A stretch of DNA of 64,000 nt, taken from Psychrobacillus psychrodurans. Its GTDB lineage: Bacteria > Bacillota > Bacilli > Bacillales_A > Planococcaceae. The stretch spans positions 1 to 64,000 of the forward strand of contig FOUN01000015.1 of NCBI GenBank assembly GCA_900114885.1. Direction: 5' to 3'. Below, piece by piece: positions 150 through 52,999 of the stretch (its first letter is position 1; every line of letters begins with the position of its first letter). The notes below the pieces were generated by a model, which ran no database searches, had not been told where the DNA came from, and saw only the letters and a list, made by a program, of their open reading frames with translations. A program made the translations under genes and the position numbers.

Positions 150-180
150 TTCTACTAAAGCAGCAGTTTAGTTGAAGAAG
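150..180 (+). repeat. Short palindromic repeat (P module)
   Basis: Inverted half-sites CTACTAAA and TTTAGTTGAA flank the short loop GCAGCAG. This is the leftmost copy of the family that separates genes across the first 53 kb. Confidence 0.7.
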
Positions 181-247
181 AAAGTCCTTTAAAATGATTG
201 TAGGTTTTAAAGGTTAACTGGGTTTTAATAATAGATGGAGGTTGTTG

Positions 248-323
248 CACTAACGGATGCTGTACTTCAAGAAGGGGTAAAGCCTTTTTCTTATTGAACT
301 AAAGAAGCAGTTTAGTCGAATAA
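248..323 (+). repeat. Composite repeat: terminator hairpin plus P module
   Basis: CACTAACGG is followed by a hairpin arm pair ending in GTAAAGCCTTTTTC, then TTGAACTAAA, a GCAG loop and TTTAGTCGAATAA. It lies directly upstream of the gene at 413. Confidence 0.75.
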
Positions 324-412
324 ATAAAATTAGAAAAAAGCGGAATTTTAGTTTGTTTATATTCGTATATTATTATGAGTTGATTATTATGACACTTGAA
401 AGGTGGATTTTT

Positions 413-754
413 ATGTACAAAGTGAATGGTATAGAAGCTTATGAAGCACATAATCGAACTGAGTTATTAGCAGGTTTAGAGGCAAAATCTGAATATATCC
501 TTATTAAAGGAGACTATTATAAAGAAGTAAGAAAGATTATGGATACTCATCTTCCAGAGAACGAAAGTATAGGAGTGGCATTAGGAAGTGCAGGTGTGTT
601 ATCAATTCTTAATTATGCAATAGATGCAGTAATAAATTCATTCAGTAATGCAGATAAAATGGATAAAAAAATTGACAGAAAGTTAAATTCATTCAAGGTT
701 AAAAAGATTACAGATGATGGTTTATTATTGAGCTTAAAGCAGTTAGATTATTAG
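413..754 (+). CDS. Hypothetical protein, 113 aa
   Basis: I do not recognise this protein. The ATG at 413 is chosen because AAAGGTGG lies 7 to 8 bases upstream; the frame stays open further upstream to 353 without a ribosome binding site. The sequence is hydrophilic at both ends with one mildly hydrophobic stretch around residues 55-75 (SIGVALGSAGVLSILNYAID) that is rich in Gly and Ala, followed by a Lys-rich segment. There is no signal peptide. It is the only gene between two copies of the dispersed repeat and has its own perfect 11 bp hairpin just after the stop, so it looks like a self-contained unit. Confidence 0.7.
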   Translation: MYKVNGIEAYEAHNRTELLAGLEAKSEYILIKGDYYKEVRKIMDTHLPENESIGVALGSAGVLSILNYAIDAVINSFSNADKMDKKIDRKLNSFKVKKITDDGLLLSLKQLDY

Positions 755-764
755 AACTTGCATA

Positions 765-791
765 CATAGAACTATTTTGGATAGTTCTATG
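765..791 (+). terminator. Perfect hairpin after the 413-754 gene
   Basis: CATAGAACTAT at 765-775 pairs with ATAGTTCTATG at 781-791 around a 5-base loop. There is no T run, so it may be an RNA-stabilising hairpin or a weak terminator. Confidence 0.5.
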
Positions 792-800
792 TGAATAAAT

Positions 801-940
801 ACACTTAAACAAACGGGAGCTTTAGCTAAACGAGACCATCATTTCGATGGTCCTTTTTTACGTCCAAAACATCAAGTGGATTTCGTCGATCCCTTGTGAA
901 ATGTTACACTTAAACTAAAGGTGCAGTTTAGTTGAAGAAG
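801..940 (+). repeat. Long composite repeat, subfamily A
   Basis: CTTAAACAAACGGGAGC/TTTAGCT opens the element. A terminator follows (GACCATC 834-840, GATGGTC 846-852, then T6). Next comes a linker beginning TCCAAAACATCAAG and ending TTGTGAAATGTTACACTT, then AACTAAAGGTGCAGTTTAGTTGAAG. Copies with the same layout and linker are at 5406-5557 and 37712-37843. Confidence 0.8.
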
Positions 941-997
941 GTATTTTTAAAATAATATTGAAATAATAAGAATAAAGGGTGAAAGGGTGAATGTATA

Positions 998-1765
998 ATG
1001 TCTCAAATTTCTATGGTGGAAAACCTTTTTAAAGGTTCATTTAAAGTAATAGATGGCATGCCTCAGTATATTGGAATAGAAGAAAGAGAGAGGGCGGTCT
1101 TTGATCATAATAACTGGAAAGATAAGATAAATACTTTAAATGAATTTGCTATACAAAATAAACTTAGCAGAATTAGTGCTTTAATTAACAGAACTTCGGA
1201 ACACTATTTGCTTCTTTCGCTAATGCTAATTAATTTGGGATTTGAAAAGTATGCTTCAAAAGTTGAAGTATTTAGAGACTTAATTGATATTAATAACAAT
1301 AAAAAAGGGTACGATTGGCAATCATTAAGTGACTATAATATATCGGAAGATGAGTTTAAGAAAATTTGGGAGAAATGTATGTATGCGTCTGAAAACTCCC
1401 CAACTTCACTTACAATGGATGAACATCTAAACTCAGTGAAAAATGAAATAGGGGAGAATTGGAGTAAATCTTGTAATGTCATTTACTTAGAAGACAAACC
1501 CGTTGGCATATCTATCCCCCATATAGAACGTGGCACTGTAGACGAAGGAAGGTTATTTTATTTTGGGATTTTACCTGAAGAGAGAGGGAAAGGACATAGT
1601 ATATCTATTCACTATCAGTCCATGAATTTTCTAAAAGAATTTGGAGCGACCTATTACATAGGAATTACACATGAGACCAATAAAAAAATGCAAAAAGTAT
1701 TTTTAAAAAATGGGTGTTCAATTAAGGCTGAAACAGAATCGTATTATAAATATATAAGTAATTAA
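998..1765 (+). CDS. GNAT family N-acetyltransferase
   Basis: A 255-residue protein whose C-terminal 100 residues carry a GNAT acetyl-CoA binding fold. A strand pair ends in FGILPEERGKGHS, where ERGKGH fits the Q/R-x-x-G-x-G/A motif, followed by a helix and the closing VFLKNGCS segment typical of GNAT motif B. The N-terminal 140 residues resemble the helical extension of two-domain acetyltransferases. The ATG is preceded by AAAGGGTGA at 982-990. GNAT enzymes move an acetyl group from acetyl-CoA to an amine; the substrate cannot be read here. It stands alone between a subfamily A repeat and a terminator. Confidence 0.85.
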   Translation: MSQISMVENLFKGSFKVIDGMPQYIGIEERERAVFDHNNWKDKINTLNEFAIQNKLSRISALINRTSEHYLLLSLMLINLGFEKYASKVEVFRDLIDINNNKKGYDWQSLSDYNISEDEFKKIWEKCMYASENSPTSLTMDEHLNSVKNEIGENWSKSCNVIYLEDKPVGISIPHIERGTVDEGRLFYFGILPEERGKGHSISIHYQSMNFLKEFGATYYIGITHETNKKMQKVFLKNGCSIKAETESYYKYISN

Positions 1766-1797
1766 GCCAACAGTTCTTTTACGGGCGGCTTTTTTTA
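1765..1797 (+). terminator. Weak Rho-independent terminator
   Basis: AGCC and GGCT form a short stem around a long loop, followed by seven T, directly after the GNAT stop codon. Confidence 0.5.
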
Positions 1798-2155
1798 TTT
1801 AACTAACGCGGCAGCAGGCCTCTGCCTTATGAATAGACCGAACGAAGGAATGTAAGCGCACTGACGCTAAGAGACATGGGAGGGTACGTCATCATAAGCA
1901 TCGCAGAGATCCATTGTGCATCAAATAATGGGTAAGAAAAGCTAATGTTTTCCATTAGTTTTAGCGAAGCGTACGCTCTTCTTGGTAATAAAAACAAGAA
2001 ATTCAAATCTATGTTTATTTGTTAATAGAAAAATAATTTTTCTCACATCACGAAGTGATGAAAATCGTTGATACTTCAATGTTTATAGAGGGAGGTTAGT
2101 TCAATAAGTATAGTAAAATGAGTTTGATAAAATGCTGTGTGAAGAAGGAGAAATT
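1797..2155. other. Non-coding stretch starting with a repeat half-site
   Basis: It begins with TTAACTAACGCGGCAG, the left half of the P module. Several small inverted repeats follow, for example CAGGC/GCCT and AGCTAATG-TTTTC-CATTAG near 1940-1960. No open frame or known RNA was recognised. A strong GAAGAAGGAG ribosome binding site for the next, broken, gene closes the stretch. Confidence 0.4.
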
Positions 2156-2638
2156 ATGGATAAAAAGGAGTTTTTTCATTCCCTTTAAAAAATAGTTGTT
2201 GACCCTCTGTTTATTGGTGAGAGTCTGCAAGACCTAGCTGAAGAAACAACAAACAACACATGGTCAATTTCTATTAGCAAGGAATTAGCTACTAAGATAT
2301 TATTGGAAGATTTCATAGGTTTTTTTCAAAGAGTGATAATGAACAGACAAGAGCAAATAAGCAGTTCAAATAACCGAGATGGAATGCTCTTCTATATTTG
2401 GTTCGATTGGCAATCGGCAGAAATAAAGTTTAATTTAATATCGGATTATGACACCGCCCTACCATTCGGATGTGAAATAGAAATTACAAATAGACTTGAG
2501 TCTATTATTGAAGATTTTCTAAGATTTCCATATCACGATGGCTTTCCATTTGAAGAGGTTAGAAATGATGACGAGCAAATGGAGGAAGTCGTAGAAGGAG
2601 AAACTTTGAGAGTATTCCTCCTCAAAATAAATCGATAA
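2156..2638 (+). pseudogene. Unrecognised gene with an early nonsense codon
   Basis: GAAGAAGGAG sits correctly before ATG 2156. The frame reads MDKKEFFHSL, hits TAA at 2186-2188, then continues in the same frame to 2638 with well-formed protein sequence (about 150 further residues). A single base change therefore explains the break. Reinitiation at the TTG at 2303 could give 111 residues but has no ribosome binding site. The protein is acidic and rich in aromatic residues (for example FYIWFDWQSAEIKFN). It resembles small cytoplasmic immunity-type proteins in composition, but no family is assigned. Confidence 0.65.
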
Positions 2639-2640
2639 TC

Positions 2641-2672
2641 TTATTCAACTAACGAGTGCATTAGTTGAGCAA
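2641..2672 (+). repeat. P module repeat
   Basis: ATTCAACTAACG, loop AGTGCA, TTAGTTGAGCAA. The left end ATTCAAC matches the integron core consensus RYYYAAC exactly. Confidence 0.7.
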
Positions 2673-2684
2673 TTAATTTCGTGA

Positions 2685-2900
2685 ATGGGATGTGGAGTAG
2701 TGAGTAAGTCCTTTTGGATTCCGTTAACGGCTTCATTTGGTACTATGATATTACTATATATAATAGGCTTTATAGCTGATATAGATTTTCTTATATTTAA
2801 AATTTCACTCTCGCATATTGAGATTGCTCTACTACCATTCGGTGTTGGGGTGTTAGTGGGGTTTATTAGTGAACGTATTATCAAAACGAAATCTCATTAA
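2685..2900 (+). CDS. Small two-segment membrane protein, about 71 aa
   Basis: I do not recognise the family. The protein has two hydrophobic segments (about residues 10-32 and 45-63) separated by a short loop and ends in a Lys-rich cytoplasmic tail. The start is uncertain: ATG 2685 and GTG 2700 are in frame and neither has a well-spaced ribosome binding site. It follows directly on a P module, like other single-gene units here. Confidence 0.55.
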   Translation: MGCGVVSKSFWIPLTASFGTMILLYIIGFIADIDFLIFKISLSHIEIALLPFGVGVLVGFISERIIKTKSH

Positions 2901-2910
2901 TGTAAAACAT

Positions 2911-2973
2911 TATACTTAAAGTAACGAGTGCTTTAGCAGAACAAGAGACTGCCTTTAGGGGTAGCTTTTTATA
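2911..2973 (+). repeat. Half composite repeat with terminator
   Basis: CTTAAAGTAACGAGTGCTTTAGC opens it, followed by the hairpin CTGCC-TTTA-GGGGTAG and a T run. This is the second terminator variant of the repeat family, also seen near 4508 and 39372. Confidence 0.6.
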
Positions 2974-3015
2974 AAGTAAGTGTAAAGTTAACCTTACACG
3001 AAATGAGGAATATCA

Positions 3016-3222
3016 GTGATAAATAAAGTAAAAGAATTACGGGAATTATACGGGCTAACTCAGGGACAATTAGGAGAAAAAGTAAATGTCTCACGTCAGG
3101 CTATCAATGCGATTGAGAAGAACAAATTCGATCCATCCATTTGGTTAGCATACGATTTAGCAAAACTTTTTAATAAATCAATTAAAGAAATATTTGATTT
3201 TGAAGGGAGCAAGAGAAAATGA
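3016..3222 (+). CDS. XRE-family helix-turn-helix regulator
   Basis: A 68-residue, single-domain Cro/CI-type regulator. The helix-turn-helix occupies residues 14-35, with TQGQLGEKVNVSRQAINAIE as the two helices, followed by the usual DPSIWLAYDLAKLFNKSIKEIF segment. The start is GTG 3016 behind GAGG. It overlaps the next gene by four bases (ATGA), so the two are translationally coupled. Small XRE proteins of this type are commonly paired with a small membrane protein in Bacillales. It probably represses its own two-gene operon. Confidence 0.85.
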   Translation: MINKVKELRELYGLTQGQLGEKVNVSRQAINAIEKNKFDPSIWLAYDLAKLFNKSIKEIFDFEGSKRK

Positions 3223-3437
3223 CGTTATTTAAAAATCCTTTAATTAATATCATTTTTATTATTTTTATGTCCGCAGTCTTTAATAGGTGTTTTATTATAG
3301 CAGGTTTTATATCTATCCTATTGGTTCCTGTAAGTATGATTTTGCTTTTAAGTGATCCTAATTATGTGATAGAAACTATTTTGTTGCTTGCATCTGTACA
3401 ATGGGGTAGTGTAATCGTTCTATTTTTATTTATGTGA
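3219..3437 (+). CDS. Small membrane protein coupled to the XRE regulator
   Basis: 72 residues with three short hydrophobic stretches and almost no charged residues. ATG 3219 overlaps the regulator stop by ATGA. No family is recognised beyond the common pairing of a small XRE regulator with a membrane partner. The protein ends abruptly in a hydrophobic segment (VLFLFM), so it may be shortened relative to its relatives. Confidence 0.65.
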   Translation: MTLFKNPLINIIFIIFMSAVFNRCFIIAGFISILLVPVSMILLLSDPNYVIETILLLASVQWGSVIVLFLFM

Positions 3438-3469
3438 TTAGAAATTAATCTCTATATTTGAACTGCCTT

Positions 3470-3550
3470 CTTCAAGTAACAGGTGCTTTTCTTCAAGAAG
3501 GGTGAAACATTTTTTCTTATTGAACTAACACCGCAGTTTCGTTGAATAAC
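3470..3550 (+). repeat. Full composite repeat
   Basis: TTCAAGTAACAGGTGC, a TTTTCTTCAAGAAGGGTGAAA hairpin, a T run, then TTGAACTAACACCGCAGTTTCGTTGAAT. The right end GTTGAAT fits the core consensus GTTRRRY. Confidence 0.75.
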
Positions 3551-3601
3551 GGAGTCACAAAACTAATGTCGAAAACGACTTATTGAAATGGGTGGGATAT
3601 T

Positions 3602-4027
3602 TTGAAGACTCATAAACTACTTTTCGTTATGGTTGTTTTATTTTTATCAATAATCGCAGGTTGTTCAAATAAAATAGTGAATGAAGAACAAAAAATTGAA
3701 GTTCAAAAGCGTATTCACGATGAAAACAATTATAAAGATTTCAAAGTAATTTCGGATAATGATGAAGTCCAAAAAGTGAAAGAGATAGTATTCGATACTG
3801 AATGGGAAAATGCAAAAGTACAGATGGAACATCCTGCTGATTATAGGTTTATATTTCAGTATAAAAATCCTAATATAGAAGCCAAAGTTGTGTCATATAA
3901 ACTTTGGATAAGTCCAAATAATGACGTAGCCGAAATTGTAATGGAAGATGATGAATACGCTATACTAAATGAGGAAAATTCAAGTATTTTAATTGAAATT
4001 TTAGCGGGTGAAAACTTACCAAACTAA
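3602..4027 (+). CDS. Lipoprotein, YhfM-like
   Basis: A 141-residue secreted lipoprotein. Residues 1-20 form a signal peptide ending in IIAGC, a proper lipobox, so Cys is lipidated after signal peptidase II cleavage. The mature part contains the pattern W.N.KVQM..P.DY.F.F and LWISPNNDVAEIV, which I associate with the Bacillus YhfM-type lipoproteins of unknown role. Start is TTG 3602 with GGGTGGGA upstream. It is flanked by repeats on both sides. Confidence 0.75.
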   Translation: MKTHKLLFVMVVLFLSIIAGCSNKIVNEEQKIEVQKRIHDENNYKDFKVISDNDEVQKVKEIVFDTEWENAKVQMEHPADYRFIFQYKNPNIEAKVVSYKLWISPNNDVAEIVMEDDEYAILNEENSSILIEILAGENLPN

Positions 4028-4036
4028 ATACCCATT

Positions 4037-4112
4037 GTTCAACTAACGTATGCTTTACTACAAGAAGAAGTAAAGCCTTTTTCCTATTGAAGTAACGGTG
4101 GGATTTAGTAAG
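4037..4112 (+). repeat. Full composite repeat
   Basis: TTCAACTAACGTATGCTTTAC and GTAAAGCCTTTTTCC form the terminator half. A degenerate second palindrome (TTGAAGTAACGGTGGGATTTAG) follows. Confidence 0.75.
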
Positions 4113-4129
4113 TAGTTGGAGGGTGGAGA

Positions 4130-4483
4130 ATGAGAAGAACAAAGAAGATTATTAAAATAACTTTATTAGCTATTCTTGCTGGATTAGTAATTGTACCGTT
4201 AGTATCCATACAAGCAAATAAATATATTTACGAAAATAGAGTAACTACTTACCTAATTGAAGAGAAGGGCTTTGAAAAAGAGGATATTGAGTCAGTTGAG
4301 GGTAAATGAGGATTTAAGCTTCCAGCATAATATGCATTGGTAACCTTCAAAAATGAACCATATGCTGAGTACACCTATTTTGCCCATGACAAGGATGTAT
4401 TTCAATTTAGTTACAACATTAATGACGCAGGACAGAAAGAAGGCATTAAAGAGGAAGACCTAAGGAATTATAATCTACGTTAA
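4130..4483 (+). pseudogene. DUF3139-type small secreted/membrane protein, two nonsense codons
   Basis: From ATG 4130 (GGAGGGTGGAGA upstream) the frame encodes an N-terminal membrane anchor followed by EKGFEKEDIESVEG. It then meets TGA at 4307-4309 and TAA at 4328-4330 and continues in the same frame with YALVTFKNEPYAEYTYF to the TAA at 4481. The layout (anchor, KG..E.DI, then EP...Y.Y) fits DUF3139. Two stops in one frame without a frameshift indicate decay by substitution. The true stop is part of the next repeat copy. Confidence 0.75.
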
Positions 4484-4565
4484 CGGGTAGTTTAGTTAAA
4501 CAAGGTGCTTGCCTGTATGGTAGCTTATTTCTTATTGAACTAATGGTGCAGTATAGTTGAAGAAG
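4479..4565 (+). repeat. Most complete composite repeat (two palindromes around a terminator)
   Basis: Palindrome 1 is GTTAACGGGTAGTTTAGTTA. The central hairpin is GCTTGCC-TGTAT-GGTAGC with a T-rich tail. Palindrome 2 is TTGAACTAATGGTGCAGTAT followed by AGTTGAAG. The total length of 87 bp is within the size range known for integron attC sites. Confidence 0.8.
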
Positions 4566-4652
4566 GAAAAGGTTCTTAAATTGTCGAAATTAAAGATTAT
4601 AGTTATGATATTCTATTCTACAAATAACAAATTATTAGGAGGGATTAGTACG

Positions 4653-5345
4653 TTGAAAACAATAGGTTTAATAGGTGGGATGAGTTGGGAATCATCAAGT
4701 GAATATTACCGTTTAATAAATGAAGAAATAAAGAATAAATTAGGTGGATTACATTCAGCCAAATGCATTTTATATAGCGTTGACTTTGACGAAATTGAAC
4801 GTTATCAAGCAAATGGCGATTGGGAAAATGCTGGACACACTTTGGGGGATGTGGCAACCTCTTTAGAAAAAGCAGGAGCAGATTTTATTGTTATTTGTAC
4901 AAACACAATGCACAAGGTAATAAACTATATTGAAGAAAAAATAAATATTCCAATTCTACATATTGCTGATGCGACAGCAAATGAAATAAAGAAAAATAAT
5001 GTAAATTCAGTTGGGTTACTTGGAACTAAATATACGATGATACAAGACTTTTACAAATCGAGAATTGAAGCTAATGATATCAAGGTATTAATTCCAGATA
5101 ATGAGGATATAGAACTTATAAATGAAGTGATTTATGAAGAATTATGTTTAGGTAAAATCAATCAAACGTCAAAAGAATATGTTAAAAAAGCTATAAAGAG
5201 GTTAGTTGATAAAGGTGCCGAAGGGATTATATTAGGATGTACAGAGATTGGATTATTAATAAAACAAGAGGATTCTGCAGTTCCAATATTTGATACTACA
5301 GTAATTCACGCTATTGAATCAGTTAATAAGGCAATTGAAAAATAA
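4653..5345 (+). CDS. Aspartate/glutamate racemase family protein
   Basis: A 230-residue cofactor-independent amino acid racemase. The N-terminus KTIGLIGGMSWESSSEYY is the hallmark of the RacX/aspartate racemase group. The two catalytic Cys are in ICTNTMH (about residue 84) and LGCTEI (about residue 195). These enzymes interconvert L- and D-amino acids by a two-base mechanism, often for cell wall or biofilm D-amino acids; the exact substrate is not visible. I chose TTG 4653 because TAGGAGGGA lies at 4636-4644 and family members begin here; an in-frame extension to 4557 lacks a binding site. Confidence 0.9.
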   Translation: MKTIGLIGGMSWESSSEYYRLINEEIKNKLGGLHSAKCILYSVDFDEIERYQANGDWENAGHTLGDVATSLEKAGADFIVICTNTMHKVINYIEEKINIPILHIADATANEIKKNNVNSVGLLGTKYTMIQDFYKSRIEANDIKVLIPDNEDIELINEVIYEELCLGKINQTSKEYVKKAIKRLVDKGAEGIILGCTEIGLLIKQEDSAVPIFDTTVIHAIESVNKAIEK

Positions 5346-5405
5346 GGATACCTTATTCAAAAGCTTTAGAAATATGAAAACGTCACATACCAGAGAGTTT
5401 ATAGT

Positions 5406-5557
5406 TGTTTCGCTAACGTGGTGTTTTAGCAAAATATGGCCATCATGGTGCAGCACCTCATTCGATGGTCTATTTTTATGTCCAAAACATTAAGTTGATC
5501 TCAGATATGCATTGTGAAATGTTATACCTAAACTAACGTAGCTGTTTAGTTGAATAA
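5406..5557 (+). repeat. Long composite repeat, subfamily A
   Basis: CGCTAACGTGGTGTTTTAGC, then a hairpin (GGCCATC, GATGGTC) with T run, the linker TCCAAAACATTAAGTTGAT ending TTGTGAAATGTTATACC, and AACTAACGTAGCTGTTTAGT followed by TGAATAA. It matches the copies at 801 and 37712. Confidence 0.8.
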
Positions 5558-5587
5558 ATTAGTATTTAATAATTGGGGGTGTTTCTA

Positions 5588-5656
5588 TTGAGACTAAGTA
5601 GTCAGGATGTTTTGAGGAAATTGACTAACAGTGTGCTTTACTTCAGTAAGGTGTAA
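5588..5656 (+). pseudogene. Gene start fused to a repeat copy (emptied unit)
   Basis: A strong GGGGGTG precedes TTG 5588. About 10 codons (MRLSSQDVLR) are followed directly by a repeat copy that runs into a stop. This looks like a unit whose gene body was lost by deletion, leaving ribosome binding site, start and terminal repeat. Confidence 0.4.
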
Positions 5657-5700
5657 AGCTCTTTCTTATTGAATCAATGAAGAAGTTTACTGGAAGAATA
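5620..5700 (+). repeat. Full composite repeat
   Basis: TTGACTAACAGTGTGCTTTAC and GTAAAGCTCTTTC terminator half, then a decayed second palindrome TTGAATCAATGAAGAAGTTTAC. Confidence 0.65.
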
Positions 5701-5828
5701 GTGGATTTTATATTGCCCCTTATTTAATAAGCATTAAGTGAGAAAATCTGAGTTTGTTGAGAACATAAATATGTATAACATCTGACATTGAAGAGTTCTT
5801 AGATAATGGAAACAATAATTTGTATATC

Positions 5829-6471: not shown

Positions 6472-6495
6472 TAGGTGCCTTACTTGAACAACGAG
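6459..6495 (+). repeat. Partial repeat overlapping a stop codon
   Basis: TTAAACTAATAGGTGCCTTACTTGAACAA; left half-site and start of the terminator hairpin only. The stretch to 6767 otherwise holds only the family B piece listed next. Confidence 0.5.
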
Positions 6496-6962: not shown

Positions 6963-7051
6963 TAAAGCATATTCTTTATAAGAAATATAGGAGAAAGCAA
7001 AGGTTTACTTAAGCATTTAGATGAGATTGTTTAATAATTGTCTTTGTTATT

Positions 7052-7084
7052 ATTTTACTAACGCGGCTGCTTAGTTGATTAAAA
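7052..7084 (+). repeat. P module repeat
   Basis: TTTTACTAACGCGGCTGCTT then AGTTGATTAAAAG. Confidence 0.65.
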
Positions 7085-11582: not shown

Positions 11583-11607
11583 CATTAATCAAAAGAAATA
11601 TTATTAA

Positions 11608-11683
11608 GCTAAAGACTTAATTCAAGAAGAAGTAAAATATTTTTCTTTATTGAACTAAGGCGGGAGGTTATTTCATAAAGAGT
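11608..11683 (+). repeat. Composite repeat
   Basis: TAAGCTAAAGACTTAATTC and AAGAAGTAAAATATTTTTC form a weak terminator half, then TTGAACTAAGGCGGGAGGTT. Confidence 0.6.
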
Positions 11684-11716
11684 TATATAATAGCTTTTGA
11701 AAGAAAGGAAACACAG

Positions 11717-12415: not shown

Positions 12416-12578
12416 AGGAATAAAATTAATCCATCTTTAGCATTCGTTTGGAGAGATACAGTTGGTAAGTCAAGTTTGCTTGTCCCATAGTTAAGTTTCG
12501 CTTCATCTTTATTGAATTAAAAGTTGATAGAAAGCCAACAGAGATAAATCATTTGTTAGATAAGTTTGTGAGACAGTT

Positions 12579-12610
12579 CACTTAAACTAACGAAGCAATT
12601 TAGGTTAAGA
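12579..12610 (+). repeat. P module repeat with part of the subfamily A linker
   Basis: CACTTAAACTAACGAAGCAA then TTTAGGTTAAG. The preceding TTTGTGAGACAGTT resembles the end of the subfamily A linker. Confidence 0.6.
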
Positions 12611-12704
12611 TGAGATACTGGAAATATTGAAAAAAATGGAACTATTTAAGTTTTTATACGTAAAAGCAATAAAAAGCAATGCATGTTGAGAGGAGTGAAT
12701 CGCG

Positions 12705-13109: not shown

Positions 13110-13118
13110 GGATAATTC

Positions 13119-13192
13119 TTATTAAACTAACACGGGTTGCTGAGGCAGCCCTTTTTTCTTATTGAAATAACGGCGCAGATTGGTTGAAGAAG
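13119..13192 (+). repeat. Full composite repeat with strong terminator
   Basis: TTAAACTAACAC, hairpin GGGTTGC-TGAG-GCAGCCC, T6, then TTGAAATAACGGCGCAGA and TTGGTTGAAGAAG. Confidence 0.8.
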
Positions 13193-13237
13193 AAAACTCT
13201 AAGTTTTACTAATAAATAAAGGGGAGGTGTAGATGAT

Positions 13238-14504: not shown

Positions 14505-14551
14505 TTTCATTCACATCCAATAGACTGATTTCTATTTTAATAAATAATTTT

Positions 14552-14583
14552 TTATTCAACTAACGCGGTAGTTTAGTAGAATT
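14552..14583 (+). repeat. P module repeat
   Basis: ATTCAACTAACGCGGTAGTT then TAGTAGAAT. Left core fits RYYYAAC. Confidence 0.75.
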
Positions 14584-15181: not shown

Positions 15182-15240
15182 TGATTTATTGTCACAAATT
15201 TATATAATATGCAATTATTGTGTAAGTCTTTATATATTCT

Positions 15241-15273
15241 TGTTGAGCTAACTCGGCAGGTTAGTTTATAACA
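15241..15273 (+). repeat. P module repeat
   Basis: TGTTGAGCTAACTCGGCAGG then TTAGTTTATAACAAG. Confidence 0.65.
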
Positions 15274-19394: not shown

Positions 19395-19470
19395 CTGACG
19401 AGCGCAGCTTTACTCCATAAAGAGTAAAGTTTTTTTCTGATTGCCTAAAACTAAAGGTTTAGTTTAGTGA
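19395..19470 (+). repeat. Composite repeat with perfect terminator
   Basis: TGACGAGCGCA, hairpin GCTTTACTC-CATAAA-GAGTAAAG with T7, then AAAACTAAAGGTTTAGTTTA. The rest of 19219-19394 is AT-rich without a gene. Confidence 0.7.
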
Positions 19471-19763: not shown

Positions 19764-19780
19764 AAAAGAAGTTGATTAAT

Positions 19781-19857
19781 TGACTAGCGAGGTGCTTAGT
19801 AAACAGAAGAGTTAATAATACAGCTCTCTTTTCTGATTGAACTAGGACGGCAGGTAT
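19781..19857 (+). repeat. Composite repeat
   Basis: TGACTAGCGAGGTGCTTAGT, hairpin AGAG-TTAATAATACAG-CTCT with T run, then TTGAACTAGGACGGCAGG. Confidence 0.6.
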
Positions 19858-19915
19858 GAAAAACAGGAGTAAAATTTGGTTGGATTAAAATATAAAAGGA
19901 AAATATTTAACTACA

Positions 19916-28144: not shown

Positions 28145-29140
28145 GTGTTGGATGCAAAATGTATTAAATTCTATAAATTCGGTAGCCCTAGAGATGTATT
28201 AAAAGTTGAATATAAAAGTATTGAATCACCAAAAGAATCCGAAGTCCTTGTTCGAATGTTAACACGTTCTATAAATCCTTCTGATTTAATACCAATTAGA
28301 GGGGCCTATTCACATCGGATAACTTTACCTAATATTCCGGGTTATGAAGGGGTTGGTATTGTAGAAGAGGTAGGTCCATTAGTTTCTCGACACCTTATTG
28401 GTAAAAGAGTTTTACCCTTGAGAGGGGAAGGTACATGGCAGGAATTTGTTAAAACATCATCAGAATTTGCAGTTCCAATACCAGATTCTATTGATAATTT
28501 TACAGCATCACAGATGTATATCAATCCAATCACAGCATGGGTAGTTTGTACGGAAGTTTTAAAATTAAAACCATATGATGTTTTGCTGGTTAACGCATGT
28601 GGTTCTTCTATTGGGCATATTTTTGCTCAATTATCAAAGCTTTTAGGTTTTCGATTGATAGCAATTACTAGAAGTAATAAGCATACAGAAAAATTACTTA
28701 ATCTAGGTGCTTCTTTTGTAATTGATACATCTAAAAATCCACTTTATGAAACGGTTATGGAATTGACAAGTGGGATTGGTGCTGATGCTGCTATTGATTC
28801 TATTGGAGGTTCATCTGGAAACGACTTGGCATTTTGTGTGCACCCTAATGGCAATTTTTTAACTATCGGTCTTTTATCAGGAATACAAGTAAATTGGTCA
28901 GATATTGTAAATAAGGCTAAGGTTAATGCTAGTATCTTTCATTTGCGGAATTGGAATAAAAATGTCTCGGCAGATAAATGGCAAAATACATTTAACCATT
29001 TGATAACTCTAATTGATGATAAAAAATTAAGTTTGATGATGGTAGATTCCCAATACGACTTATCGAACGTAAAAAAAGCTGTTGAAGAAATTGAAACATT
29101 AAAAGAGACCAAAGGGAAAGTATTTTTAACAAGTTACTGA
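28145..29140 (+). CDS. MDR oxidoreductase, enoyl reductase-like
   Basis: 331 residues of the medium-chain dehydrogenase fold without zinc ligands. INPSDLIPIRGAYSHRITLP then NIPGYEGVGIV is the substrate half, as in trans-2-enoyl-CoA/ACP reductases (MECR-type). VNACGSSIGHIFAQLSK is the nucleotide-binding turn, where the usual AxxGGVG is altered to CGSSIG. NADPH-dependent reduction of an enoyl or quinone substrate is likely. GTG 28145 follows AAGGAGAAG. Confidence 0.85.
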   Translation: MLDAKCIKFYKFGSPRDVLKVEYKSIESPKESEVLVRMLTRSINPSDLIPIRGAYSHRITLPNIPGYEGVGIVEEVGPLVSRHLIGKRVLPLRGEGTWQEFVKTSSEFAVPIPDSIDNFTASQMYINPITAWVVCTEVLKLKPYDVLLVNACGSSIGHIFAQLSKLLGFRLIAITRSNKHTEKLLNLGASFVIDTSKNPLYETVMELTSGIGADAAIDSIGGSSGNDLAFCVHPNGNFLTIGLLSGIQVNWSDIVNKAKVNASIFHLRNWNKNVSADKWQNTFNHLITLIDDKKLSLMMVDSQYDLSNVKKAVEEIETLKETKGKVFLTSY

Positions 29141-29149
29141 GTTAACTCT

Positions 29150-29180
29150 TGTTCAACTATCGCGGCAATTAGTTGAATAA
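29150..29180 (+). repeat. P module repeat
   Basis: GTTCAACTATCGCGGCAATT then AGTTGAATAAG; both ends fit integron-type core sites (TTCAAC, GTTGAAT). Confidence 0.7.
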
Positions 29181-29205
29181 GCGAAATGGATCTATGGTAA
29201 TTTAA

Positions 29206-34174: not shown

Positions 34175-34270
34175 TTATTCAACTAACATATGCTTAGTTA
34201 AGTATATGGCTGTCTGAAAGGGTTGCTTTTTCTTATTGAACATTATCGCAGTAGGTTTGCTCAATAAGAG
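34175..34270 (+). repeat. Full composite repeat
   Basis: ATTCAACTAACATATGCTTA then GTTAAGTAT, hairpin GGCTGTC-TGAAA-GGGTTGC with T5, then TTGAACATTATCGCAGTAGG then TTTGCTCAATAAG. Confidence 0.75.
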
Positions 34271-34362
34271 CAGGAGAATCAATATTATAGGTAGAAATAT
34301 AATAAGATGACATTGTTTAGAGGTTTTGAAACACTATTATATTTATATGAGGAGTGTTAGTT

Positions 34363-34857
34363 ATGGTCCATGCAAAAGATGTTATATCGGATCAATTGTT
34401 GGCAAATGCAAATGACCCTAGTTGGTACCTACCATTTTCAGATTCAATAAGAGGACTGACTGAGGATCAAGCATTTTGGAAACCAAACGAGGAAAGTAAT
34501 AGTATTGCTGAAATCGTACAGCATCTACTATATTGGAATCAAACATGGCAAACAAGGTACAAAAAATCTCACGTTGATGCCGTTCCTTCCATTGGAAATA
34601 ATAATAACAGCTTTATTATTCCTGAAAATCATTCATTTGCTGACTTAGAAAAACAACTATTAGAGGTGCTTATACTTTGGCAAGAGTTATTGTCTGAAGA
34701 AAAAGTTGAGAGTGAAGTGAATGGCTTTTCTGAACATGTAAAATGGTGGGAAGTTCTCGGAAATGTGTCAACTCATAATGCGTATCACATAGGTCAGATT
34801 ATTTATATCCGAAAGTTGCAAAAAAGCTGGAAAATAAATGTTGGAGAAGATGAATAA
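34363..34857 (+). CDS. DinB-family protein
   Basis: 164 residues of the DinB_2 four-helix fold. The first metal His is in EIVQHLLYWN (about residue 51) and the pair in STHNAYHIGQIIYIRKL (about 141-145). Such proteins bind Zn, Fe or Ni and several act as thiol transferases. GGAGTG lies before ATG 34363. No SOS box upstream, unlike the DinB gene on the opposite strand 435 bases away. Confidence 0.83.
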   Translation: MVHAKDVISDQLLANANDPSWYLPFSDSIRGLTEDQAFWKPNEESNSIAEIVQHLLYWNQTWQTRYKKSHVDAVPSIGNNNNSFIIPENHSFADLEKQLLEVLILWQELLSEEKVESEVNGFSEHVKWWEVLGNVSTHNAYHIGQIIYIRKLQKSWKINVGEDE

Positions 34858-34880
34858 ATAGAATGTATACAAGTGATTTC

Positions 34881-34953
34881 TTGAACTAAGGCGCGCTTAT
34901 TTCAAGTAGGAGATAAGCATTTTTCTTTGAACTAAGCAGTTTAGTTGAAGAAG
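34881..34953 (+). repeat. Full composite repeat
   Basis: TTGAACTAAGGCGCGCTTAT, hairpin GCTTAT-TTCAAGTAGG-AGATAAGC with T run, then TTGAACTAAGCAGTTTAGTT then GAAGAAG. Confidence 0.8.
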
Positions 34954-35002
34954 AATTTCCCTCTAAAATTATCGAATTGCTACATGAGAAAGGATGTAGA
35001 AT

Positions 35003-35473
35003 ATGAAGTTATTTATAGAAAATATGAATGAAGAAATAGCAAAAGATATACTTAGCTGGGAGTATGAAAAACCATATGATTTCTATAATAATGAATTAAC
35101 AGATCAAGAAATAAAGGAAAGACTCGATGGTTCATATTATGCACTTGTAAATGATAAGAAAGAATTATATGGATTTTTTTGTACTGGAGAGAATGCACAA
35201 GTTCCAGTCGGGAAAAAAATTGGTGTTTATTCAGACGACTCAATAGATATGGGACTAGGAATGAACCCTAAAATGGTAGGGAAAGGTAACGGTTTTGAAT
35301 TTTGTTCTTTTATTCTTCGTTACATTGAAAAAAACTATATAGGTAGTCCAATTCGATTAACTGTGGCAAAGTTCAATCAAAGAGCTATTCATTTATATGA
35401 AAAGCTTGGTTTTGTTAAGAAAGACGAATTTAACACGGATTATTCAGAATTTATGACGATGATCAAATTATAA
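35003..35473 (+). CDS. GNAT acetyltransferase
   Basis: 156 residues. The acetyl-CoA loop is MNPKMVGKGNGFEFCSFIL (V-G-K-G-N-G), followed by IRLTVAKFNQRAIHLYEKLG and F. GAAAGGATG precedes the ATG. It stands alone after a composite repeat. Confidence 0.88.
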   Translation: MKLFIENMNEEIAKDILSWEYEKPYDFYNNELTDQEIKERLDGSYYALVNDKKELYGFFCTGENAQVPVGKKIGVYSDDSIDMGLGMNPKMVGKGNGFEFCSFILRYIEKNYIGSPIRLTVAKFNQRAIHLYEKLGFVKKDEFNTDYSEFMTMIKL

Positions 35474-37885: not shown

Positions 37886-37945
37886 TGTTGAACAATGGGT
37901 GCTCTACTTCAAGTCTAGGGCACTTTTTTCTTTAACTAATGCAAC
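37886..37945 (+). repeat. Composite repeat, partial
   Basis: TTGAACAATGGGTGCTCTAC then TTCAAGTCTAGGGCACTTTT, and TTTAACTAATGCAACGAGAG. Confidence 0.5.
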
Positions 37946-42020: not shown

Positions 42021-42039
42021 TTGTATTGGTTTCTAGTAT

Positions 42040-42108
42040 AAACTGGTGCTTTGCTTCAAGAAGAAGTAAAGCTTTTTTTATTAAACTAGCCCAGCAGTTT
42101 AAGTAATA
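42040..42108 (+). repeat. Full composite repeat
   Basis: AAACTGGTGCTTTGCTTC and GAAGTAAAGCTTTTTTTA terminator half, then TTAAACTAGCCCAGCAGTTT then AAGTAATAAAG. Confidence 0.75.
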
Positions 42109-47436: not shown

Positions 47437-47471
47437 ATTAGTTAAATTATGTATTTATTATAAAGGTATTC

Positions 47472-47540
47472 TCACTTACCGGTGCTTTACTTCAAGAGGG
47501 GTATTGCATTTTTTATTGAAATAGCGCGGAAGTTATAAGA
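47472..47540 (+). repeat. Full composite repeat
   Basis: CACTTACCGGTGCTTTACTT then AAGAGGGGTATTGCATTTTT terminator half, then TTGAAATAGCGCGGAAGTTA. Confidence 0.65.
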
Positions 47541-48992: not shown

Positions 48993-49253
48993 ATGAGTAA
49001 AAAACGGTATAACCAAGAATTTAAACAAACAGTAGTGGAGCTTCACAGCTCAGGTACCCCGGTCAGCCAACTATCTAGCGAATATGGTGTTTCAGAAGTA
49101 ACCATCTATAAATGGATTAAACAGTTCTCTACAATCGAAGGGACAAAGGAATTAACTGTATCCGATGTAGAAATGATTCAAAAAGAAAACCTCCGGTTAA
49201 AACAGGAGCTTGAAATCCTAAAAAAGGCTATGACCATATTCGCGAGAAAATAG
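48993..49253 (+). CDS. IS3-family transposase OrfA
   Basis: 86 residues. Helix-turn-helix of the IS3/IS911 OrfA kind: RYNQEFKQTVVELHSSGTPV then SQLSSEYGVSEVTIYKWIKQ, followed by a leucine-zipper-like helix ENLRLKQELEILKKAM. It binds the IS ends. The reading frame overlaps OrfB by one base near AGAAAATAG, where a -1 slip would fuse the two. Confidence 0.9.
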   Translation: MSKKRYNQEFKQTVVELHSSGTPVSQLSSEYGVSEVTIYKWIKQFSTIEGTKELTVSDVEMIQKENLRLKQELEILKKAMTIFARK

Positions 49254-50128
49254 AGGACGAAGAACTGATCAACTACATTACAAATGAAAGCGGGCATCAT
49301 CCAGTACAAGTGATGTGTCGCATTTTAAAGATGCCTAAAAGTACTTATTATCATTCATTTCATAAGAAACCGAACAGCTACCACGTGGCCAATGAGGCAA
49401 TATTGGATCGTATAATAGCCATTCATAAAGGAAGCAAAGGTATCTATGGCGCTCCCAAAATACATCGAGTACTTTTAAAAGAAGGCTATTCTTGCAGTAT
49501 AAAAAGAGTCCAACGTCTGATGAAACAAGCAGGCATCCAGTCAAACATTGTGAAGAAATACCGTCCAGCAAGCACACAGACACCAGTGGAAGAACGAGAA
49601 AATGTGTTGAAGCAAGATTTTACAACAACCACAATCAATGAAAAATGGGTGGCAGATATCACGTATATCCATACACTTCGAGATGGCTGGTGTTATCTAG
49701 CGTCTGTCCTCGATTTGCATTCAAAGAAAATAGTAGGCTACAAGTTTTCCCATACGATGACCACAGAAATCGTGTTGGATGCTTTAAAAAGTGCCGTCGA
49801 TTCCCAAAATCCTTCACCGGGATTGATCATCCATACGGATCTAGGTACCCAATATACAAGTGAGGCATTTCAAGAACAGTTAAAAAAATATGAAATGATT
49901 GCATCATTCAGTCGTAAAGGATGCCCTTATGACAATGCATGCATCGAGTCCTTTCATGCCACACTCAAAAAAGAAGAGGTCTATCGGAAACGATATGAAG
50001 ATTTTGAGAATGCGAGAATCTCCCTATTTCAATATATAGAAGGCTGGTATAATCGTAGACGAATTCATGGAAGCATCGGCTTTGTAACGCCAGAGGCGTA
50101 TGAAATAATGTGTCGCGCAGCAGCCTGA
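49250..50128 (+). CDS. IS3-family transposase OrfB (DDE integrase)
   Basis: Catalytic part of the transposase, read in the -1 frame relative to OrfA from 49250; the first internal ATG is 49310 (272 residues from there). HTH_21 region KGSKGIYGAPKIHRVLLKEG, then the DDE residues: Asp in KWVADITYI, Asp in IIHTDLGTQYTS, Glu in NACIESFHATLKKEEVY, with 35 residues between the last two, as in the rve integrase core. The full product is probably the OrfAB fusion made by frameshift. Confidence 0.9.
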   Translation: MEDEELINYITNESGHHPVQVMCRILKMPKSTYYHSFHKKPNSYHVANEAILDRIIAIHKGSKGIYGAPKIHRVLLKEGYSCSIKRVQRLMKQAGIQSNIVKKYRPASTQTPVEERENVLKQDFTTTTINEKWVADITYIHTLRDGWCYLASVLDLHSKKIVGYKFSHTMTTEIVLDALKSAVDSQNPSPGLIIHTDLGTQYTSEAFQEQLKKYEMIASFSRKGCPYDNACIESFHATLKKEEVYRKRYEDFENARISLFQYIEGWYNRRRIHGSIGFVTPEAYEIMCRAAA

Positions 50129-50279: not shown

Positions 50280-50454
50280 GAAAAAACTTAATCTTTTTGT
50301 GTCCAGAATCTTGACGTAGATCCAGGCTTTATATGAAGAGCTTTTAATAACACATTAAAAAGATTGATATCATTTGTTTAAATTTAATAGAGTTAACGTG
50401 AAGATTAAAACAAGTAGCTAATAATAGAATACAAACGACGGGGGAGAAAAGTCC

Positions 50455-50994
50455 ATGGGATTTCCAAATTTGGAAACAACACGGTTGAACTTAGTTCAAG
50501 TTGAAAAGGAACATGCTCAAAGCTTTTACGAAATTATGTCAAGAAACGAAGTGACTAAGTACTATGGAATGGAGAGTTTGAAAAGTCTAGAAGATGCTCT
50601 AAAAATAGTCGAGTCTTTCCAAAACACATACAAGAGCAAAAGAGGTATAAGATGGGGAATCGTATTAAGGGATACTGGCGAGTTTGTAGGTACATTGGGA
50701 TTAAACAATCTTAGCACCAGGAGTAAAAAAGCTGAGATTGGTTTTGAGCTGCATCCTTCACATTGGAACAAAGGGATTATGACTGAAGCTGTAAGGGAAA
50801 TATTACGATATTCATTTGAGGATTTAGAAATATATAGAATTGGTGCTATAACTTATCCACAGAATGAGCCATCTATACAGTTATTAAAACGGTTGGGTTT
50901 TACTGAGGAGGGATTATTAAGGGGTTACCTCTATCAAAATAATCAGTCTCATCATGCTTTAGTTTTTTCATTGTTAAGAACAGAATGGCAATAA
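50455..50994 (+). CDS. GNAT acetyltransferase, RimJ/RimL type
   Basis: 179 residues. LETTRLNLVQVEKEHAQSFY at the start, FVGTLGLNNLSTRSKKAEIG then FELHPSHWNKGIMTEAVREI (acetyl-CoA loop W-N-K-G-I-M) and NEPSIQLLKRLGFTEEGLLR. Relatives acetylate ribosomal proteins or aminoglycoside-like amines. GGGGGAGAA precedes the ATG. The 150 bases between the IS and this gene include a coding scrap (AFNNTLKRLISF) of a lost gene. Confidence 0.9.
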   Translation: MGFPNLETTRLNLVQVEKEHAQSFYEIMSRNEVTKYYGMESLKSLEDALKIVESFQNTYKSKRGIRWGIVLRDTGEFVGTLGLNNLSTRSKKAEIGFELHPSHWNKGIMTEAVREILRYSFEDLEIYRIGAITYPQNEPSIQLLKRLGFTEEGLLRGYLYQNNQSHHALVFSLLRTEWQ

Positions 50995-51057
50995 ATATTA
51001 TTGAACCAGTATAGTTAAACAAGTGGTACATGTCCATCTAAGGCGGAGATAACAAGG

Positions 51058-51090
51058 GTGATTGCACAAAAATTGCAATCGCTATTTTGG
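51058..51090 (+). terminator. Hairpin, probable terminator
   Basis: GTGATTGC and GCAATCGC (one wobble pair) around 9 bases, followed by TATTTTGG. It lies after a half repeat TTGAACCAGTATAGTTAAAC. Confidence 0.6.
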
Positions 51091-51155
51091 CAGAAAATAT
51101 TCTTTAATGATATCGATCTATATACATTCCTTAAAAGAAAGGAGAAATTATAAAT

Positions 51156-51560
51156 TTGATTAATTATTTTGAACGTAAAATAAGATTAAAAGACTTCGAA
51201 GTTTGGGATTTACGAATTGCCAAACGAAACTTATCATTATTCATATTAGATGAACATCGACCTGCTACCTTAGAGGATTTTGAAATGCCAGAGCTAATTT
51301 ATGAAGAAGGTGACCAACGTGTGAATTATGTATCTGCTAAGTATTACTCAAAAGAAGTTGTTTTAGAAGAACATAAAGAAATACTTGGTGAATTTGCAAG
51401 AATGCTAACAGAACATTTAGCATTGGCACATTGTGAAGTTATTATAAAATTTTATCAAGAAAACCCTAAAAAAGCACTAGACCGAATTATGTTAGCTAAA
51501 TATGGTTTCAAAGAGTCTGAAATTCCTTTAAAAAAACTATGGCACTTTAATCAAGAATAG
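51156..51560 (+). CDS. Hypothetical protein, 134 aa
   Basis: Not recognised. Soluble, with a strand-rich first half (WDLRIAKRNLSLFILDEHRP) and a helical second half with YYSKEVVLEEHKEILGEFAR. AAAGGAGA lies 11 bases before TTG 51156. Confidence 0.65.
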   Translation: MINYFERKIRLKDFEVWDLRIAKRNLSLFILDEHRPATLEDFEMPELIYEEGDQRVNYVSAKYYSKEVVLEEHKEILGEFARMLTEHLALAHCEVIIKFYQENPKKALDRIMLAKYGFKESEIPLKKLWHFNQE

Positions 51561-51679
51561 AAGTTGAGTTTTTTCCCTAAAGTTTGAAAATTAAAAATGA
51601 TAAAAGGTTGTGTAGGACTGTAGAATGACTATGAAATAGTTGATTTAAATAGATACATATGGGGAAAGAAGGTATAAAT

Positions 51680-52945
51680 ATGCCTGGTGAGCTGAATAAC
51701 TTTGCTCAAGGATACATAGAAAATCCAGAGAGAATAAAAAAGTTATATAAACGAACATTGATCATAATCGTTATTTCTCAAATGTTTGGAGGAGCAGGAT
51801 TAGCAGCTGGAGTAACAGTTGGAGCATTACTTGCAGAACAAATGCTTGGAACAAATGCATTTGCAGGGCTTCCAGCAGCTTTTTTGACTTTAGGATCAGC
51901 AGGAGCTGCTTTTTCAGTAGGAAGACTTTCTAACCGTCTTGGTAGACGCATGGGTCTTGCAACAGGCTTTATAACAGGCGGCCTCGGAGCAATAGGCGTT
52001 GTTTTTGCGACTGTTTTTAATAGTGTGCCTATATTATTTGCTTCCTTATTTGTATACGGTGCAGGAACTGCAACAAATTTACAAGCTCGCTATGCCGGTA
52101 CAGATCTAGCAACTAATAAACAGCGGGGCACTGCTGTAAGTATAGCAATGGTTTCCACGACATTTGGAGCAGTTGCTGGTCCAAACCTAGTGGATGTAAT
52201 GGGGAATTTCGCACTTTCAATTGGTGTTCCTGAATTAGCAGGTCCGTTTATTTTATCGGCAGCAGCATTTATATTAGCAGGAATTGTGATATTTACTTTT
52301 TTACGTCCTGATCCACTCATTATTGCGTTAAACATAAATACAAATAAAAAAAACACGATACTTAACGAGACTCTCGAAAAGAAACAAAGTAATAAAAAAG
52401 GAATTACAATTGGAGCTACCATTATGGTTCTTAGTCAAATTGTGATGCTTGCTATTATGACAATGACACCGATTCATATGGGACATCATGGTTACAGTTT
52501 AAGGGAAATCGGACTTGTTATCGGGTTTCATATAGGTGCAATGTATCTGCCTTCACTCTTCACGGGGATTCTTGTTGATAAGTTTGGTCGAACTGCCATG
52601 GCGATTGCTTCTGGAATCACATTGCTGCTTGCAGGAGTTGTAGCTGCAATTGCACCCGCTGACTCTTTATTCCTTCTTGTTGTTGCATTATCGTTACTTG
52701 GAATAGGATGGAATTTGGGGTTAATAAGCGGTACAGCCTTAATTGTTGATTCAACAGAACCTTCAACACGTGCCAAAACTCAAGGGACTGTGGATGTTTT
52801 TATTGCATTAGCAGGTGCAACCGGAGGTATCATGTCAGGACTGGTTGTTGCTGGTACAAGTTACGAAACGTTATCACTTGCCGGAGGGATTTTGTCTTTA
52901 ATACTCATTCCAGTTGTAATATGGTCCCGCAGTGGAAAAGAATGA
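51680..52945 (+). CDS. MFS transporter
   Basis: 421 residues with about 12 membrane segments. GRLSNRLGRRMGLATGFITG is motif A in the 2-3 loop, and GILVDKFGRTAMAIASG the matching motif in the 8-9 loop. The middle loop is LRPDPLIIALNINTNKKNTI. Substrate unknown. ATG 51680 follows AAAGAAGGT. It is the last large gene of the repeat-rich region. Confidence 0.87.
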   Translation: MPGELNNFAQGYIENPERIKKLYKRTLIIIVISQMFGGAGLAAGVTVGALLAEQMLGTNAFAGLPAAFLTLGSAGAAFSVGRLSNRLGRRMGLATGFITGGLGAIGVVFATVFNSVPILFASLFVYGAGTATNLQARYAGTDLATNKQRGTAVSIAMVSTTFGAVAGPNLVDVMGNFALSIGVPELAGPFILSAAAFILAGIVIFTFLRPDPLIIALNINTNKKNTILNETLEKKQSNKKGITIGATIMVLSQIVMLAIMTMTPIHMGHHGYSLREIGLVIGFHIGAMYLPSLFTGILVDKFGRTAMAIASGITLLLAGVVAAIAPADSLFLLVVALSLLGIGWNLGLISGTALIVDSTEPSTRAKTQGTVDVFIALAGATGGIMSGLVVAGTSYETLSLAGGILSLILIPVVIWSRSGKE

Positions 52946-52967
52946 TGGTACAAACGAAAATATTTCT

Positions 52968-52999
52968 TGTTTAACAAACGAGTGCGATTGTTGAACAAG
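52968..52999 (+). repeat. Last repeat copy of the array
   Basis: TTGTTTAACAAACGAGTGCG then ATTGTTGAACAAG; half-sites are variant (AACAAACG, TTGTTGAA). Beyond it no copy is seen. Confidence 0.55.

Follow-up and report, generated by a model that had tools for sequence, protein, structure and literature searches.

What accounts for some 35 copies of one composite repeat, nearly all reading the same way, between unrelated genes along 53 kb of a Psychrobacillus psychrodurans contig? The repeats lie in a stretch of 64,000 nucleotides (contig FOUN01000015.1, positions 1 to 64,000; C38:1-64000 in our numbering), called the window here, from a draft genome (G000) of 4.0 Mb in 47 contigs. Our reading is that the window is an aged and eroding section of a gene-cassette array and lacks a recombinase of its own. 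The cassette system to which it belongs is real, resembles an integron, has a XerA-type recombinase and seems not to have been described before. Very probably, this recombinase moves the units of the array by acting at the right-hand simple site of each repeat. The array, the position and orientation of the recombinase, the sharing of units, exchange in the spacer, and the presence or absence of units beside the recombinase are each shown by comparing sequences.

Searched at E <= 0.05 with a profile made from eight of the clearest copies, the window yields 26 repeat loci; 18 of them are not in the profile, and every one scores best on the + strand. Nothing passes this threshold in 10 dinucleotide shuffles or in the reversed window. 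At E <= 1 there are 41 loci (38 on +, 3 on -), against 0-2 per shuffle (n = 10) and 2 in the reversed window. No repeat locus was found by the profile search beyond position 53,000, and no copy was detected at about 15.3-19.4 kb. The sequence-only reading from which we started had counted about 35 copies over 53 kb, nearly all in one direction, and these numbers make that a fair count. The copies it named as complete (4479-4565, 3470-3550, 13119-13192, 34175-34270 and 34881-34953) are all real and correctly described as two inverted half-site pairs around a terminator-like hairpin. Its picture of unrelated, mostly single genes on the + strand is borne out, with three - strand genes at 30495-33928. 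Pfam families in a scan of 50 open reading frames (ORFs) of the window include GNAT, HAD, HIT, DinB, Asp/Glu racemase, isochorismatase and MFS; many scanned ORFs have no Pfam match, and an Rfam search of the window gave no match. The window copies are diverged. In the draft genome as a whole, the pattern AACTAACGNNGCAGTTTAGTTGAA has 78 matches with <=3 mismatches, and the reversed pattern has 0; matches are clustered, often at contig ends.

Fresher copies elsewhere give, as a consensus drawn by eye, approximately CTTATTCAACTAA-CGGGTGCT-TTAGTTNAACAAG for the left pair and CTTATTGAACTAA-CGNNGCAGT-TTAGTTGAATAAG for the right pair. Across 285 seeds, the right half consists of the inverted arms AACTAA and TTAGTT flanking the 9-bp spacer CGNNGCAGT. 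A left half lies <=200 bp upstream of the right half at 505 of 847 sites (18 of 847 in the downstream control), mostly at a distance of 40-60 or about 100 bp. By eye, the site centre often carries a terminator-like hairpin. Scanning window positions 1-20000 gave 12 terminator-like sites vs 8.9 (sd 2.9) in shuffles, no clear overall excess, and five of the 12 overlap repeat copies (834, 2949, 13134, 15239 and 19406). When eight window copies were folded as single strands, three clearly beat shuffles with z below -2.5 (34876-34953, 42032-42110 and 805-945), a fourth reached z -2.43, and the remaining four did not clearly beat them.

Non-random placement relative to gene ends had also been proposed, and only 4 of 863 sites fall inside an ORF of at least 120 amino acids, compared with 470 of 863 positions drawn at random. 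In 501 of 556 units, the longest ORF reads in the site direction; among random intervals, this holds for 336 of 449. The 598 units of 250-2500 bp have a median length of 736 bp, a set that excludes 43 shorter intervals, 150 longer ones and 27 recombinase units; ORFs of at least 80 amino acids number one in 385 of them, none in 98, and two or more in 115. All 19 genomes of the genus carry the site pattern, and arrays in relatives reach about 211 kb, mostly as single-gene units. In the complete genome G003, the array lies at C1:837-1049 kb, and 138 sites were counted in a 220-kb stretch there, the opposite strand having no strong site. A tie between array orientation and replication was considered and set aside, being suggestive in one genome and mixed in others.

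Inside the arrays of relatives lies a tyrosine recombinase frame of about 294 codons, whose translation may start at a TTG after AGGGGG, giving about 279 amino acids. The protein meets the XerA-type model NF040815 (225.6 bits vs a cut-off of 220) and falls under the cut-offs for integron integrase (TIGR02249, 89.8 vs 265 bits) and for XerC/XerD (199.1 vs 335.15 and 206.7 vs 329.6). Residues R140, K164, H230, R233, H256 and Y265, which we take to be catalytic from general knowledge of tyrosine recombinases, are invariant in 12 of 12 copies. The one AlphaFold model of the recombinase, which bears on the IntI-specific I2 alpha-helix, is of low confidence (pLDDT 54). A search of the window's own genome found no recombinase segment in the window or elsewhere on its contig. 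Site matches (<=4 mismatches) are opposite in strand to the recombinase in 228 of 228 cases over 39 loci (L131-L169, of which L146 and L153 overlap and L145 is without a site), and the same opposition is seen for 81 of 83 recombinase segments of >60% identity in a larger set. A recombinase near the arrays, which the sequence-only reading had envisaged, is thus present as a conserved XerA-type enzyme inside relatives' arrays and not in the window. We infer that it is the enzyme that moves the units.

The recombinase was found in Psychrobacillus, Sporosarcina, Paenisporosarcina, Lysinibacillus, Solibacillus and one Bacillus (46 loci in named genomes, of which L170 and L173-L175 are remote at 20-32% identity). 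NCBI places Psychrobacillus and Lysinibacillus in Bacillaceae, order Caryophanales; GTDB groups many genera with Psychrobacillus in one family (f1). Among 261 family genomes, 91 have a recombinase match (E <= 1e-40) and 109 have a site (<=1 mismatch). At least one site occurs in 41 of the 42 genomes that have a recombinase segment of at least 80% identity among the matches listed, vs 68 of 219 others (Fisher p 4e-17), and at least 10 sites in 32 of the 42 vs 10 of 219 (Fisher p 1e-23); these counts were tallied by hand, and the genomes are related, so the p values are too small.

Upstream of the recombinase is a similar leader of about 70 nt ending in the core ACTAACG. The core was detected 70-73 nt from the aligned recombinase 5' end in 30 of 44 copies, and inspection by eye shows a decayed core in several of the remaining 14; neither the left half nor the hairpin was seen in this attI-like core region. 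Past the core, sequence is unrelated between loci (32 pairs used of 425). In P. faecigallinarum, the core (8309) is followed directly by a unit, B. In P. antarcticus, a 495-bp unit comprising an open frame and its site (11409) stands between the core (10914) and unit B; the flanks are 90-91% identical and the 495-bp unit is cleanly absent from P. faecigallinarum. Between P. vulpis (L150) and G008, the difference at the core is a single site-to-site interval of 1941 bp; between G012, to which L132 is nearly identical, and P. faecigallinarum it is three intervals, 2509 bp. These core-adjacent differences are presence and absence of units, which may reflect insertion rather than loss at the recombinase end. 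Unit-size differences at sites were picked by eye among the gaps listed, out of 241 collinear gaps. Gain or loss of single units, the check proposed from the window, is seen beside the recombinase as clean differences of one site-to-site interval (495 bp, a gene plus its site, and 1941 bp), and these, with the placement of the sites and the in-array recombinase, support the original proposal of a gene-cassette array with a fixed 3' element.

Homologous units adjoin different neighbours in different arrays. In the window, the unit at 34251-34881 matches Bacillus sp. FJAT-29814 and the next, at 34878-35467, matches Psychrobacillus sp. OK032, a different genus; the boundary between them is the start of the site at 34881. 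The model detects no site at the FJAT-29814 copy, which decayed half-sites flank by eye. We mapped the crossover by comparing homologous unit pairs with random site pairs, column by column (n = 75 of 103 for 3' sites and n = 135 of 152 for 5' sites, each site used at most twice, the pairs being non-independent). The switch of neighbour maps inside the 9-bp spacer of the right half. Linkage to the upstream unit is 0.3-0.6 at positions -29 to -12 and 0.6-0.8 at variable positions from -6 to 0, then falls to 0.28 at 7, 0.19 and 0.12 at NN, and about 0 from 15, where identity is 0.40 in the homologous pairs vs 0.46 in random ones (n = 75). On the downstream side, linkage stays near 0 through position 10, reaches 0.35 at 15 and ranges over 0.4-0.7 at the variable positions from 21 onwards. 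The same picture comes from 55 and 98 pairs at >=80% identity under stricter rules, with each site used once and the far side differing. In the 14 and 31 pairs at >=95% identity, positions 7, 9, 10 and 15 have upstream linkages of 0.63, 0.46, 0.09 and -0.04 and downstream linkages of 0.50, 0.32, 0.23 and 0.59. Because of these two profiles, we place the exchange mainly between positions 7 and 15, and not at G19|T20. The middle of the spacer goes wholly with neither side, the pattern expected from a staggered double-strand cut; such cleavage is suggested because NN is poorly linked to either neighbour.

These comparisons are consistent with the following mechanism. Each unit is usually one gene with the composite site behind it. 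The recombinase, encoded elsewhere in the arrays and divergent, would recombine the right-hand simple site (AACTAA and TTAGTT around the spacer). Units would be excised, probably as circles, and inserted preferentially at the attI-like core just upstream of the recombinase's own gene, so that they would align in one orientation downstream. Cleavage would be staggered and double-stranded with the spacer as overlap, an ordinary Xer-type reaction and not the single-strand attC reaction. The terminator-like hairpin between the halves would insulate each unit.

Known processes could leave some of the same traces. A diverged true integron, with IntI acting on the folded bottom strand of attC, would have the same layout of divergent recombinase, attI-like site, one-way cassettes and two simple sites with a variable centre; some copies do fold better than shuffles, and the right arm has GTTRRRY-like letters, a partial match to the integron motif. 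We consider it unlikely, as the protein scores far under the integrase cut-off while meeting the XerA model, none of the 19 genus genomes (0/19) has a protein above the IntI cut-off, the halves of the site do not covary, and the missing link between position 15 and the upstream unit disfavours G|TT at 19|20 as the main exchange point. The same map bears on a second account, which we judge very unlikely, that the repeats are passive terminators or repetitive extragenic palindromic (REP)-like elements and the units are shuffled by RecA-dependent homologous recombination. The repeats are frequent, some have terminator-like hairpins, and recombination between repeats is common in general; exchange would then be expected anywhere in the roughly 90 bp, whereas positions upstream of the spacer are almost unlinked to the downstream unit (n = 135). 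The constant recombinase-core distance and the co-occurrence of recombinase and sites would also be left unexplained.

Housekeeping XerC/XerD could be imagined to move the units in the manner of pdif modules, since the site looks like a core in which a short spacer separates two inverted arms, and the host has other tyrosine recombinases. This is highly improbable given a dedicated recombinase that sits in the arrays, co-occurs with the sites and is 31-34% identical to three other recombinases of the P. psychrodurans genome. In addition, one genus of the family (g7, 46 genomes) has neither site nor recombinase, although PF00589 proteins are present in 27 of 27 genomes searched, from 11 genera. 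Many copies, inverted repeats and intergenic placement would suit an element like a miniature inverted-repeat transposable element (MITE) that inserts behind stationary genes; we find this exceedingly improbable, because the piece that differs beside the recombinase is gene plus site and the same gene units recur beside different neighbours.

Several observations weigh against movement of units by the XerA-type recombinase at the right-hand site. Ten of the 261 genomes have at least 10 sites and no recombinase segment of at least 80% identity among the matches listed, and in P. psychrodurans itself the best recombinase copy (C17) is split in two frames and the others are relics. Strong sites on the minority strand number 11, vs 938 on the majority strand, over 79 loci, with 6 of the 11 in one region of G003. 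Many of the collinear gaps are recombinase relics, other insertions, or not at sites. Conserved gene order in close strains had been named in advance as evidence against a cassette array, and this point is divided: NEAU-3TGS and P. lasiicapitis (L157/L158, 98.4% identical) are collinear over about 20 kb, their sole large indel being an ordinary deletion that extends into a gene and does not correspond to a unit, but other pairs show unit differences. An indel of about 500 bp between G003 and P. lasiicapitis lies off-site and counts against fast turnover. In the >=95% set, partial linkage to both sides appears at positions 7 and 9, and upstream linkage is 0.69 at 21 and 0.52 at 28, but -0.21 to 0.14 at 22, 25, 29 and 30; therefore, the cut positions are only approximate. 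The left half may be dispensable because it was found at only 505 of the 847 right halves. Finally, the lack of covariation between site halves (473 sites) leaves a folded substrate unsupported and is no proof against one.

The features of the window are collected in Table 1.

Table 1. Composite sites and shared units in the 64-kb window
Feature	Position	Strand	Remarks
Site, right half	132..181	+	Window 1-260 99% identical to start of contig C12
Complete composite site (left pair, terminator-like hairpin, right pair)	242..323	+	
Complete site, long centre	805..941	+	GACCATC-GATGGTC terminator-like hairpin 834-852
Unit, 255-aa gene 998-1765	894..1795	+	95% identical to second copy, same genome, C12:1550-2451
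Site core interrupted by ~290-bp IS110-family remnant (1813-2100)	1790..2108	+	
Complete composite site	3468..3549	+	
Complete composite site	4035..4116	+	
Complete composite site	4479..4566	+	
Asp/Glu racemase unit	4522..5344	+	In three other Psychrobacillus loci: L157, L158 90%; L116 96%
Complete site, long centre	5412..5557	+	
Complete composite site	5618..5699	+	
Site, right half	7042..7082	+	
Complete composite site	11598..11685	+	
Site, right half	12567..12612	+	
Complete composite site with GGGTTGCTGAGGCAGCCC terminator-like hairpin	13110..13193	+	
Site, right half	14545..14582	+	
Site, right half	15235..15268	+	
Complete composite site	19395..19470	+	
Complete composite site	19776..19860	+	
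Site, decayed	29126..29181	+	
Complete composite site, decayed	34175..34269	+	
DinB-family unit	34251..34881	+	88% identical to L147:5156-5776, Bacillus sp. FJAT-29814
Complete composite site	34881..34954	+	Single-strand fold of 34876-34953 z -3.15
GNAT unit	34878..35467	+	89% identical to L135:7835-8431, Psychrobacillus sp. OK032
Site, decayed	37889..37943	+	
Complete composite site, decayed	42032..42105	+	
Complete composite site, decayed	47468..47535	+	

Other elements accompany the sites. An element of IS110 type (by eye) of about 1.8 kb with a 425-aa transposase (L106:14817-16597) sits inside the recombination core; 8 of 9 of its right ends show the half-site, and its left ends follow ACTAA by eye (0 of 8 in a scripted test on flanks that were too short). 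The remnant at 1813-2100 in the window is a 3' remnant of this element, and an IS110 transposase is annotated close to the recombinase in a plasmid record. A second repeat family, whose full length is about 400 bp and whose sequence includes TCATTCTCTGTGGTGTAGCG, occurs in the window at 7443-7511, 9379-9447, 15942-16010 and 23236-23304, as well as at L063:854-1250, and terminates at the left half of several sites. A unit of about 285 bp (L066:7225-7508) is 93-97% identical in several Psychrobacillus arrays. Between array units at window positions 48993-50128 is an IS3-like transposase pair with an rve domain in the second ORF. Past the array end, the block 53138-56856 encodes a DUF326 protein and an HMA-domain P-type ATPase, separated by two small ORFs that resemble, by eye, a CsoR-type regulator and a copper chaperone.

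The system also extends to plasmids. Sporosarcina psychrophila plasmid pSP10-266k (266 kb; L227) carries the recombinase (93%) and five sites, all opposed to it, making it a possible vehicle between species. Its passenger genes include merA/merR and NUDIX. Recombinases 57-74% identical occur on plasmids and many chromosomes of the family, and relatives at 62-74% on other Bacillaceae plasmids and on one labelled Arthrobacter; in our opinion, such content does not fit the name Arthrobacter citreus given in the record. On plasmid CP053689.1 (L229), the right-half model matches both strands (5 on + and 4 on - at E<0.01), likely the left and right halves of the site of a sister system, and plasmid NZ_CP011009.1 (L228) gives one clear right-half match only. 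The sequence-only reading had spoken of Firmicutes, which proves too broad: a near recombinase was found in the GTDB family and one Bacillus (77%), with the 62-74% relatives beyond them.

For Gram-negative bacteria, integrons are a main platform for gathering accessory genes and rearranging them. In a family of Bacillus relatives, that job appears to be done by another recombinase and apparently by double-strand chemistry. We lean slightly towards regarding this as a second, independently evolved kind of integron with a Xer-type recombinase, double-strand exchange, a primary site of its own and a large cassette pool. If true, there would be an independent integron pool shared across genera and present on at least one plasmid, with site-specific insertion sequences in its sites, and cassette capture would need neither IntI nor folded single-stranded sites. 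The system offers a testable comparison for integron origins and a pool of small accessory genes that is new; it might also serve for cloning cassettes in Gram-positive bacteria.

We found no description of this cassette system in the literature searched, which comprised titles, abstract starts and passages, with preprints and most subscription papers outside it. The available passages of the IntegronFinder 2.0 paper report one complete integron (Limnochorda pilosa) and a few CALIN in Firmicutes, and call the reasons for the near absence of integrons there unclear (PMC9024848). Firmicutes are included among the phyla listed in a passage of PMC8618304, and PMC11089894, also available in part, is cited on the relation to integrons.

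How does the system compare with those already known? As in a chromosomal integron, a one-way array of mostly single, unrelated accessory genes has a site at each 3' end, and a divergent tyrosine recombinase has its primary site adjoining. It differs in that one genome has more than one array and multiple copies or relics of the recombinase. The recombinase is XerA-type and under the IntI cut-off. To our knowledge, no cassette array is known for XerA-type recombinases. The present enzyme belongs to the same subfamily as these (NF040815, PDB 4a8e). Gene modules bounded by Xer-type core sites recall the pdif or Xer modules of Acinetobacter plasmids, for which movement by host XerC/XerD has reportedly been proposed. 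Unlike those, the present system has a dedicated in-array recombinase, one-way sites and an attI-like primary site.

At the site itself, two simple sites with a variable centre, detected together at 505 of 847 right halves, recall attC with its left-hand (LH) and right-hand (RH) simple sites (PMC3053210, passages). Of the attC motif RYYYAAC...GTTRRRY, the right-arm letters fit GTTRRRY only in part. Unlike attC, the site contains a terminator-like hairpin, and exchange would fall inside the RH spacer and not at G|TT, with the NN of the spacer unlinked to either neighbour. Tyrosine recombinase sites have 6-8 bp spacers, and integrases retain an ancestral double-strand pathway, according to the passages available from PMC4792948. 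The IS110-family element inside the site core parallels the IS1111-attC group, in which some IS1111 elements target attC (PMC11187229, passages), with a different element and a different site. Judged from its sequences, the system is one that works like an integron but stands outside the IntI/attC family, to which neither its recombinase type nor its apparent crossover point conforms.

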